Origin: Candidatus Elulimicrobium sp.
Lineage (GTDB): Bacteria > Omnitrophota > Gorgyraeia > Zapsychrales > Fredricksoniimonadaceae
Length of the DNA stretch: 42,848 nt
Direction: 5' to 3'
Assembly: GCA_020720365.1 (NCBI GenBank)
Contig: DYOU01000004.1
Coordinates: 1 to 42,848 of the forward strand
In this document: piece by piece, positions 11,747 through 39,986 of the stretch
How the letters are laid out: every line of letters begins with the position of its first letter
How positions within the stretch are numbered: the first letter of the stretch is position 1
Notes under the pieces: model-generated
The model's input: only the letters and a program-made list of their open reading frames with translations
The model's database searches: none
Told to the model about the DNA's origin: nothing
Position numbers and translations under genes: made by a program

Positions 11747-13432
11747 ATGGCTCCGTGGTTTCAACACATTAGACGCCTGATCCAAAAACCATCTGCGGCC
11801 ATCCTTATTCTGATACTGGCCGGTGTGATCGTATACGTTAACTGCCTGCCGAACGAAATGTTCTGGGATGACGATGATTTCATCCTCAAGAACCAATACA
11901 TCCAGGACTGGAAATTCTGGCCCCATTTCTTTACGGATAATCTGATCGCCGGCGCTCATCTGGTCAGTAATTACTGGCGGCCGCTCCTGCAGATCATATT
12001 CGCGATCGAATGGCACCTCTGGGCTGATTGGGTTCCCGGCTGGCATGCCGTCAGCATCTTTTTTCACACCCTCGCCGGCGTGATGCTTTTCAAAGCTTTC
12101 GATGTCCTGCTTACCCACAGAACCCTCGCCTTTCTGTGTGCCATGATCTTTATTATCCACCCGGTACAAACAGAATCTGTGGTCTATCCCAACAGCATGG
12201 GTGATGCGCTCGCTGTCTCCTGTATGTTCACCAGCTTGTATTATTATACTCGCGCTAAAAGAAACCGCCAGCGCCGCTGGTGGTGGGTCTCTCTCGCCCT
12301 TTACCCGCTCGCTCTTATGTCCAAAGAAACAGGGATCCTGCTCGTCGGATACCTGGCACTGGCTGAATTCTTCATCCTCCAGGCTGCCGCGCCATTCTTC
12401 TTGAAAGCCTGGCGCACGCTCAAAGGCCTTTGGGCATTTATCGGGATTGCCGGCAGCTATCTCATCTTGCGCGCCACCGTACTTAATTTCTCAAACTCAT
12501 TCAATTTTTATAATGAGTCCACTTCTTTTACAGCGAACACGGGCTTGCGCCTCGCTTCTTTCTTTCAGACGCTCACGACCTACACGGGCCTTCTCTTTAT
12601 CCCCCATGACCTGCGCGTTGAACGTGTCATTCAACCCTCGGCAAACTTTCTGACCCCTGACGTCTTCTTCGGAGGGGCCGTCTTCACTGCACTTGTGTAC
12701 GGCATTATCCGATCCTGGACTAAACAGCCTTTGATCAGCTTTGCCCTTCTCTGGTTCTTGATCAGCATCCTTCCAACATCCAACCTGATCGTTGTGATCA
12801 ATGCCATTCTTTATGAACACTTCCTGTATACAGCGCTGATCGGGGCCTGGCTCGCCATCTTCCTGACGCTCAAAAACCAGATCCCTGTAAAGAACAAGCC
12901 GATCGCCGCCAGTATTTTAATCCTTATATTGGTTATATTCGCCGGGCGCAGCCTCTGGCGCACCTTCGACTGGCGTACAGCTGTCAATTTTTATGAACAA
13001 CTGCTCCTTACGGCACCGCACAGTTACCGCGTCATCAATAACCTGGGAATGGAATATGCCGAACATGCTCAACCGGAAAAAGCCGAAACGACCTACAAAA
13101 TGGCGATCGCGCTTGACCCTTCTAATGCTGTGGCTTTTCACAATCTCGGAAATTTATACAAAGGCGCGGGCCGCCGGGAAGAAGGGATCGCTTATTTCGA
13201 AAAAGCGATCGCCCTGCAACGGAACTTTATTTTCTCCTACACATCACTCGCCCAGCTTTACCTGGATAAGAACGATTACGCCAATGCCCGCCGGATCATG
13301 GAACAATACTTTGACTACGCCAATGAACGCGATTATACGCTCAATGTCCTGATTGAAATAGCCCGGCGTCAGAATGACCTTGCGGGAGTCCAGCATTACA
13401 CTCAAGCCCTGCTGAAACTGCGCGGACAATAA
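11747..13432 (+). CDS. Multi-pass membrane protein with C-terminal TPRs (TMTC-like / GT-C glycosyltransferase-like)
   Basis: N-terminal hydrophobic segments with VYVNCLPNEMFWDDDDFIL and WRPLLQIIFAIEWHLW...HAVSIFFHTLAGVMLF..IIHPVQTESVVY. C-terminal TPRs (NNLGMEYAEHAQPEKAETTYKMAIALDPSNAVAFHNLGNLYKGAGRREEGIAYFEKAIALQ). Confidence 0.8.
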   Translation: MAPWFQHIRRLIQKPSAAILILILAGVIVYVNCLPNEMFWDDDDFILKNQYIQDWKFWPHFFTDNLIAGAHLVSNYWRPLLQIIFAIEWHLWADWVPGWHAVSIFFHTLAGVMLFKAFDVLLTHRTLAFLCAMIFIIHPVQTESVVYPNSMGDALAVSCMFTSLYYYTRAKRNRQRRWWWVSLALYPLALMSKETGILLVGYLALAEFFILQAAAPFFLKAWRTLKGLWAFIGIAGSYLILRATVLNFSNSFNFYNESTSFTANTGLRLASFFQTLTTYTGLLFIPHDLRVERVIQPSANFLTPDVFFGGAVFTALVYGIIRSWTKQPLISFALLWFLISILPTSNLIVVINAILYEHFLYTALIGAWLAIFLTLKNQIPVKNKPIAASILILILVIFAGRSLWRTFDWRTAVNFYEQLLLTAPHSYRVINNLGMEYAEHAQPEKAETTYKMAIALDPSNAVAFHNLGNLYKGAGRREEGIAYFEKAIALQRNFIFSYTSLAQLYLDKNDYANARRIMEQYFDYANERDYTLNVLIEIARRQNDLAGVQHYTQALLKLRGQ

Positions 13433-13463
13433 GCGCTATCTCTTTCTATCCTTTAAAGAAACA

Positions 13464-13494
13464 AGCCTCCCTCTATTAAATTAGAAGGGAGGCT
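13464..13494 (-). terminator. Strong inverted repeat, likely terminator for minus-strand transcription
   Basis: AGCCTCCCT...AGGGAGGCT (9-bp arms, 13-nt loop). On minus it is followed by TGTTTCTTT. On plus the following bases (CACCG) are not T-rich. Confidence 0.6.
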
Positions 13495-13510
13495 CACCGT
13501 AAAAAAATAC

Positions 13511-13728
13511 GGGGGTCACCAGGTTGGCAAGGCACAACACAACGAGTTTGGTGGATTCGTTTTGAGGAAGGTTTACCTGACAACCCCGCATCTCGCGCCC
13601 AACCTTCTTACCGGGCAAAATATCGGGAAAATACCGAAATCCTCCTCAGGACAGAGAATCCATCCCCCCTGCCTATAGGGAGAGTATATATGATAAAATC
13701 AGGAAAACCCTGCTTCTGAAGGGTTTTT
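13511..13728. ncRNA. Candidate structured non-coding RNA, orientation unresolved
   Basis: No supported CDS. Nested long-range complementarity: 13511-13515/13665-13669 (GGGGG/CCCCC), 13550-13558/13656-13664 (9 bp), 13563-13574/13637-13648 (11 of 12), plus side hairpin 13523-13526/13535-13538. On plus it ends in AAAACCCT-gcttctga-AGGGTTTTT. Confidence 0.35.
13704..13728 (+). terminator. Possible plus-strand terminator
   Basis: AAAACCCT (13704-13711), 8-nt loop, AGGGTTTTT (13720-13728). Confidence 0.5.
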
Positions 13729-13744
13729 AAGAAAACGGTTTCTT

Positions 13745-13770
13745 GCAAAAACAGAAACTTCCCGTCTCTG
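13745..13770 (-). terminator. Intrinsic terminator of the ROK-family gene
   Basis: On the minus strand CAGAGAC-GGGAA-GTTTCTG followed by TTTTTGC, 14 nt beyond the stop. Confidence 0.65.
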
Positions 13771-13783
13771 TATGCAAGAATGA

Positions 13784-15106
13784 TTATATATGAAATAAGA
13801 TCGCACGACGATCTTGCGATATATTGTATTTCCGGACAGCATCTCTCATCGGAAGAACGCAAGGTAATATTTTCTTCTTGCGTAAATATTTCAACGCCAT
13901 CGCCGAGAATTCAGCTGATTTCTTATGACCGCAGGCAACGATCAGCACGTCCGGGCCTTTCTTGCAAATATCATCCAACTCATCATCCGTTAAATGTGAC
14001 GGGATCAGATCTCCTGGAACTTTAACCTTGCCATCCGCGCGAATATAGAACGCACCGCTCAGCACTTCACCTTTCACTCTCACCCTGCCCGCCGACACGA
14101 TCTGTACTTTGGGATAATACGAAAGATCTTTCAACTCTTTAAGATCGCATTGCTGACGGACCATCGCGACTGCCCCCAGCATAACCGCATCATCACCTAG
14201 TTTAGACGCGAGAACTTTGGGTGGATTCAACTTGGTAAAGAAAGGATCGTGCTGCAGCGCTTTCTCAATAACCGGTAAAATATAATCTCCGCACGCCTCG
14301 ATCACCCCGCCGCCAAAAATAAAGACCTCCGGATTAAAGATATGATTGAATGACACGCAGGCCGACGCCAATGCTTCTGCCGCCTTGCGGACGACCCGGG
14401 TAACTAACGGATCTTTGGCCTGCAGCGCTTTTTTTAACGCACCGCTTTTGATCTGTGACAGCCCCTTACCGGCAATATCCGCGATCAGGGACGCTTCACC
14501 ACCCTTTACGGCCGCGCGAATATCCCGCTCCATGGCCCAACGCCCCGCCAACGCCTCAAGACACCCGCTATTGCCGCAGGTGCATTTCGGCCCCTTGGGA
14601 TGCACTATTACATGTCCCAATTCCGCCGCCGCTCCCTGCGCGCCTTCCAGTAAGTGTCCGCCAACGATAATGCCGCCGCCCACACCCGTTCCGGGAAATA
14701 TTCCTACGATTGAATCTGCCCTGCGTCCGGCGCCAAGCCAGCGCTCACCCATTACACCAAAATTAACATCATTGCCAACAGCGGCGCGCATGCGGTATGT
14801 TTTGATCAGGATCTTCTTGAGCTCTGTACCGCTCAAGGAAATATTCGGCGTTATAACAACCCTTCCACTGCTATCCACAACGCCCGGAACAGCAACCCCA
14901 ATGCCCAACACACAGCTAACCGGCATCGCCGCTTCTTTTAAAAGCTCTTTAATCACCTTATGCAGAGCCGCAAGAATAGCGCCGGCCGTCGCCTTCGGGG
15001 GAGTAGCCGCTTTCAGCGAATGTACGATCTCACCACACGGGCGCACGAGCGCTCCGTATATCTTTGTTCCACCAATATCAATACCTATAAAGAATTTCTT
15101 ATCCAT
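13784..15106 (-). CDS. ROK-family sugar kinase (glucokinase-like) fused to a C-terminal Mth938-like (DUF498/NDUFAF3) domain
   Basis: ROK: FIGIDIGGTKIYGALV, GIFPGTGVGGGIIVGG, AELGHVIVHPKGPKCTCGNSGCLEALAG (Zn motif). C-terminal ~110 aa: VKGEVLSGAFYIRADGKVKVPGDLIPSHLTDDELDDICKKGPDVLIVACGHKKSAEFSAMALKYLRKKKILPCVLPMRDAVRKYNIS. Confidence 0.85.
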   Translation of the reverse strand: MDKKFFIGIDIGGTKIYGALVRPCGEIVHSLKAATPPKATAGAILAALHKVIKELLKEAAMPVSCVLGIGVAVPGVVDSSGRVVITPNISLSGTELKKILIKTYRMRAAVGNDVNFGVMGERWLGAGRRADSIVGIFPGTGVGGGIIVGGHLLEGAQGAAAELGHVIVHPKGPKCTCGNSGCLEALAGRWAMERDIRAAVKGGEASLIADIAGKGLSQIKSGALKKALQAKDPLVTRVVRKAAEALASACVSFNHIFNPEVFIFGGGVIEACGDYILPVIEKALQHDPFFTKLNPPKVLASKLGDDAVMLGAVAMVRQQCDLKELKDLSYYPKVQIVSAGRVRVKGEVLSGAFYIRADGKVKVPGDLIPSHLTDDELDDICKKGPDVLIVACGHKKSAEFSAMALKYLRKKKILPCVLPMRDAVRKYNISQDRRAILFHI

Positions 15107-39912: not shown

Positions 39913-39986
39913 GACCCCATCGTCTAGTCTGGTCAGGACGCGAGCTTTTCAAGCTTGCAACGCGGGTTCAAATCCCGCTGGGGTCG
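39913..39986 (+). tRNA. tRNA-Glu (anticodon UUC), CCA not encoded
   Basis: Cloverleaf by hand: acceptor GACCCCA/TGGGGTC, D arm GTCTAGTCTGGTCAGGAC, anticodon arm CGAGC-TTTTCAA-GCTTG, T arm GCGGG-TTCAAAT-CCCGC, discriminator G. Confidence 0.95.

Follow-up and report, generated by a model that had tools for sequence, protein, structure and literature searches.

Several described systems come close to the RNA that we analyse here. RybB and MicA are base-pairing sRNAs that control envelope-protein families; RybB uses a seed at its 5' end together with Hfq, and it is not derived from its targets. The Rickettsia palindromic elements (RPE) are palindromic segments found both inside and between genes. 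Furthermore, FtsO is an sRNA internal to the open reading frame (ORF) of Escherichia coli ftsI that sponges another sRNA (PMC7815308). For Omnitrophota, we found no paper on a small RNA in the literature collection searched.

We analysed an intergenic locus in a stretch of Omnitrophota DNA of 42,848 nucleotides (in the following, the window). With moderate confidence, we favour the explanation that the locus encodes a minus-strand sRNA that stems from a member of a large protein family, here called gene X, and whose loop pairs with the 5' ends of the mRNAs of gene X paralogues and so regulates the family. Like FtsO, the window RNA has its sequence in common with a protein-coding gene and is predicted to act by base pairing, and in both cases there is nucleotide-level conservation inside a coding frame. 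However, the FtsO gene stays coding whereas the coding function was lost in eight of 11 genomes here, and FtsO targets an sRNA whereas the window RNA presumably targets the 5' ends of mRNAs from paralogues of its own parent gene. The likeness to RybB and MicA is that one short seed would face many mRNAs of surface or envelope proteins, the difference from RybB being that the proposed seed is a hairpin loop. As with RPE, the palindromic segment is both genic and intergenic, but it is single copy per genome and native to the protein family, with no insert. If our explanation is true, a bacterial regulatory RNA was born from a protein gene and still controls the relatives of that gene, and sister lineages show the coding, the half-decayed and the RNA-only stage. 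This would be a bacterial counterpart of a pseudogene that becomes a regulator of its parent family, and it would offer a way into the regulation of a family with 25-80 giant secreted proteins per genome in the uncultured phylum Omnitrophota.

The locus and its conserved hairpin

The locus comprises the following features:

13433-13783: intergenic stretch between a convergent membrane-protein gene and the ROK-DUF498 gene
11747-13432, plus strand: 561-aa membrane protein with TPR-like C-terminus, convergent, stop at 13432 (ORF list)
13784-15106, minus strand: ROK-family protein with fused DUF498 domain, stop at 13784, syntenic anchor (Pfam)

The synteny comparison shows that ROK adjoins gene X or the RNA in relatives. 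In the ROK protein of the RNA-bearing lineage, the DUF498 domain is C-terminal (Pfam; window 13784-15106), and the ROK of distant relatives matches over the first 320 residues only. The form of ROK splits the genomes into two groups, 440 aa versus 320 aa, for core-carrying versus core-less genomes.

The region 13495-13740 contains no credible ORF, and the search against Rfam 15 at gathering and permissive thresholds found no match in this region of the window or at eight homologous loci. Both results agree with the original prediction, whose proposal of a structured non-coding RNA candidate outside known families has been borne out. Elsewhere in the window, Rfam finds a tRNA gene (39913-39986, plus strand).

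All genomes compared are metagenome assemblies. A DNA search of 55 relatives resulted in four matches that were restricted to about 85 nt. In three of the five aligned sequences this stretch lies within a long ORF, which is gene X; in the window and its congener G001 it lies outside any ORF and the frame is broken. A wider search combined with a covariance model detected 11 strong members, all from one Omnitrophota family. Three of these are coding (G002, G015 and G006) and eight are non-coding (G000, which is the window, G001, G005, G009, G010, G014, G017 and G019). Weaker matches of the search and the model are coding gene X paralogues, and there is one structured core copy per genome. When all GTDB contigs were scanned for the core motif, the result was seven Omnitrophota contigs, whose lengths fit genomes already detected, and four chance matches that are unrelated and have no stem. 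In the 11 Omnitrophota genomes, the conserved core corresponds to window 13512-13587 on the minus strand. The core has a mean pairwise identity of 0.71 versus 0.49 and 0.47 in the flanks (G000 and G001: 0.81 versus 0.49 and 0.43). The RNA and its parts are:

13500-13675, minus strand: predicted small RNA, start at about 13675 and end at a U-run at about 13500, with a promoter-like word upstream and a stem and U-run downstream
13588-13675, minus strand: RNA leader with low conservation (about 49% identity) that stems from the gene X 5' region and is complementary to the loop in the window's genome
13576-13587, minus strand: 5' arm of the closing stem (GGGGTTGTCAGG on the minus strand), 12 bp (pairing, covariation, RNAalifold)
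13512-13523, minus strand: 3' arm of the closing stem (CCTGGTGACCCC on the minus strand), 12 bp (pairing, covariation, RNAalifold)
13524-13575, minus strand: loop of the core hairpin (alignments)
13564-13574, minus strand: C-rich loop segment AAACCTTCCTC, CCCTCCC in most relatives (alignments)
13548-13561, minus strand: near-invariant loop stretch (R)ACGAATCCACCAA, the proposed seed (alignments and peak of leader complementarity)

When applied unaided to the eight non-coding copies, RNAalifold returned a single 12-bp helix, 13512-13523 with 13576-13587. Within these copies, 94.8% of the stem cells are paired and four of the 12 stem pairs show changes on both sides. The covariation score was reached by none of 500 shuffles, and sliding the partner by 1-3 columns reduced stem pairing to 43-58%. 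The stem is also kept in the three coding copies. Thus, both the covariation and the conservation in relatives (11 genomes) that the original prediction had proposed to look for are found. The loop contains CCCTCCC and RACGAATCCACCAA; its stretch GACGAAUCCACCAA is near-invariant across the 11 genomes, and ACGAATCCACCA is present in ten of them, with one T-to-A change in G019. In predicted folds the proposed seed stretch has an unpaired probability of 0.19-0.85. The minimum free-energy fold in the window's genome hides the loop in pairing with the leader (z -3.7); we rejected this pairing as a conserved fold, as it is not consistent among relatives.

The original prediction had differed in fold and strand: it proposed a plus-strand RNA in which 13511-13515 and 13665-13669 close a three-way junction. 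The complementary strings are present where it had placed them (GGGGG at 13511-13515 and CCCCC at 13665-13669, GGTGGATTC at 13550-13558 and GAATCCATC at 13656-13664), and they pair in the window sequence. However, the 5' and 3' partners lie in unconserved flank, and the long helices join the core to the leader, whose identity of about 49% equals the flank background. Comparative support for these helices is absent, with the leader part 13637-13669 at background identity, and the partner that phylogeny supports for 13512-13515 is 13584-13587 instead of 13665-13669. A folding signal was recovered on the plus strand, where it is modest compared to shuffled sequences (z -1.86); it is clearly better on the minus strand (z -2.75, for a stretch that also took in the terminator hairpin at 13464-13494). 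Because the promoter-like words, the terminators and the gene X homology with its reading frame all read minus in the homologues, we assign the RNA to the minus strand and regard the plus-strand model as extremely improbable. The extent changes as well: the predicted minus-strand RNA is about 175 nt long, and the part of it that is conserved consists of one 12-bp hairpin that closes a long invariant loop. Nor is the RNA an orphan, given its homology to the 5' coding part of a large protein family.

Probable origin from gene X

In G002, G015 and G006 the core sequence occurs in frame inside gene X, and gene X lies downstream of ROK in several relatives. In the congener G002, gene X begins 120 nt after ROK and hence at the same locus as the window RNA, which indicates that the RNA occupies a former gene X site. 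The 5' region of this gene is alignable to the non-coding RNA leader of G001 (TTTTTATAGGRTATGCTTTYAATTAGGC), and the copy in G017 still resembles the gene X N-terminus. Judged by these alignments, the predicted RNA is a derelict gene X with a retained hairpin. We conclude that a structured and conserved RNA derived from gene X is very probably encoded on the minus strand.

Gene X has no match in Pfam or NCBIfam. Its paralogues form a very large family; their starts resemble signal peptides, and their open frames reach nearly 5000 aa. There are 8-80 copies per genome (32 in the window's genome, 80 in G001), and 25-80 in most genomes of the core-bearing family. One example of this secreted-looking family is L002:1296-2849 (FDFIVDPGD...ESTKLIKYFLASLT...DLWVNLSPYE). 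The hairpin segment is native to the gene X paralogues (ESTKLIKYFLASLT), most of which do not have the hairpin stem. A palindromic repeat or mobile element (RPE-like or MITE) was rejected, as there is a single structured copy per genome, no insertion, and the segment is native to gene X.

The clear homology to gene X, the broken frame in the non-coding copies and the syntenic position would also fit a mere decayed remnant of gene X, in which the conserved stretch is the part that has not yet eroded; the upstream part in G017 still has the appearance of a recent pseudogene. Yet what is conserved across five genera is the stem-loop alone, with flanks at background. Furthermore, the stem changes are compensatory, the 3' boundary is identical in all copies, and the loop is near-invariant despite the loss of the frame. 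We thus consider a mere remnant quite unlikely.

Predicted transcript and neighbouring signals

The minus-strand transcript is predicted to run from about 13675 to 13500 (about 175 nt). The signals around it are:

13731-13737, minus strand: CGTTTTC word, possible operator common to gene X promoters (enrichment upstream of paralogues)
13705-13710, minus strand: possible -35 GGGTTT, spacing 16 (inferred from relatives, NNGTTT upstream)
13683-13688, minus strand: -10-like word TATACT (comparison with relatives)
13500-13509, minus strand: U-run TATTTTTTTA, which follows the closing stem immediately, as in G010 and G019
13464-13494, no single strand: additional terminator hairpin AAGCCTCCC...GGGAGGCT that could serve either gene; a part was found on the minus strand by the scan (13488-13469)

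A TATACTT-like word is found about 70-290 nt upstream of the core on the minus strand, with TATACTT or a close variant ahead of the RNA in the other seven genomes. TATACTT is also among the top enriched words upstream of gene X paralogues. For the -10-like word TATACT, the promoter scan gave no match to the sigma-70 consensus. CGTTTTC occurs upstream of 25 of the 128 gene X paralogues compared to four of 409 other genes. The RNA gene also has the word CGTTTTC(C/T), which may be one half of a palindromic operator. Its occurrence at both gene X and the RNA gene suggests a shared transcription factor.

At the other end, an intrinsic terminator or U-run follows the core in most non-coding copies; in G014, there is no obvious terminator or U-run after the core. 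As the U-run adjoins the stem in the window, G010 and G019, the core hairpin may itself be the terminator there.

The order of promoter, hairpin, terminator and gene could alternatively describe a cis-acting leader or attenuator of a downstream gene X paralogue, and such a paralogue does come next, with the same orientation, in G001, G017, G014 and G019 and perhaps also in G005 and G009. However, no gene X lies downstream in the window or in G010, so that the regulated gene is not directly downstream in all members as expected for an attenuator or riboswitch. Where examined, the downstream gene has a promoter-like TATACTT word of its own, and the complementarity described below reaches unlinked paralogues. 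A cis-acting role is therefore unlikely.

Complementarity to gene X mRNA leaders

We compared the hexamers in the upstream regions of 128 gene X paralogues to those of 409 other genes from the same genomes, where start sites, promoters and start codons of gene X are predicted. Apart from the promoter words and CGTTTTC, the most enriched hexamer was TGGTGG (25 of 128 versus 13 of 409, p 1e-8), and in a sliding 14-nt window the differential complementarity to the leaders of gene X peaked at GACGAAUCCACCAA (difference -1.9 kcal/mol, p 6e-8), where both p-values overstate independence because the paralogues share ancestry. The scan of the whole core gave no comparable peak outside the invariant loop, and the complement of TGGTGG is present in all eight non-coding cores. 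The motif words had been suggested by a first look at the leaders; the unbiased hexamer and window scans and the core-less genomes served as checks. Within 28 nt after the -10 word, GGTGG occurs in 27 of 89 gene X copies versus none of 88 other genes. It occurs in none of 37 gene X copies in related core-less genomes, but genomes with and without the core seem to belong to separate lineages, so that the co-occurrence of core and GGTGG may be a single phylogenetic contrast.

The best duplexes predicted for the window's genome have energies down to -20 kcal/mol, and the predicted complementarity extends to unlinked gene X paralogues. The complementarity to the presumed target mRNAs goes beyond chance, as expected for a trans-acting base-pairing sRNA; taken singly, it is not significant in G014, G019, G010 and G015, and in one case from G014 the 'UTR' match falls in a glycine-rich coding stretch. 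Pairing of gene X leaders with their own coding region was rejected as the general reason for TGGTGG, since in 23 of the 25 TGGTGG genes the matching position in the gene's own CDS shows no CCACCA (for some genes, this position was not located).

The words sit 4-22 nt (median 10) past the -10 word in all but one case. Such an operator-like position of GGTGG could mean that gene X promoters use it as an element at the level of DNA or of initial transcription, with an incidental match to the loop. This would leave aside that the match peaks exactly at the invariant loop within the whole core, and that GGTGG is absent in lineages without the core, and we regard it as rather unlikely. The RNA might also be a decoy that mimics the gene X mRNA hairpin and titrates a protein or RNA binding there. 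It is a same-strand copy of a gene X coding segment, and coding-derived sponges do exist (FtsO, PMC7815308). However, most gene X paralogues have no hairpin stem to be mimicked and the specific complementarity to mRNA 5' ends would be left unexplained, which makes a decoy improbable.

We return to base pairing and lean towards the view that the RNA is a base-pairing regulator of the gene X family, as suggested by the match of its invariant loop to the start of many gene X mRNAs. The gene X copy downstream of ROK would have lost its reading frame and kept its promoter together with a single hairpin (12 bp, 50-nt loop), two steps that rest on the comparison of genomes. From the complementarity, the loop GACGAAUCCACCAA would then pair with a sequence of the type GGTGG(A)/GGATTCG at the very 5' end of gene X mRNAs, and this pairing may regulate many members of the secreted-protein family at once. 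The effect could be blocked ribosome access, a change in 5'-end decay, or activation. In the three genomes with the hairpin in a translated gene X, this role could fall to the mRNA itself or to a piece of it. Only tentatively do we propose that a gene X member turned into a regulatory RNA that controls its own paralogues' mRNAs via a seed matching their first transcribed bases. The idea that the stages of this change are visible, with coding copies in three genomes, a freshly broken one in another and pure RNA in the others, is part of the same reading and is just as tentative. As the prediction that gene X is the target comes down to a single 14-nt sequence, it is directly testable.

Lastly, gene X leaders of the core-less genome G008 (loci L228-L247) are enriched for another word, ATGGTA (8 of 26 versus 1 of 65). 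Another seed and RNA might exist in this lineage.
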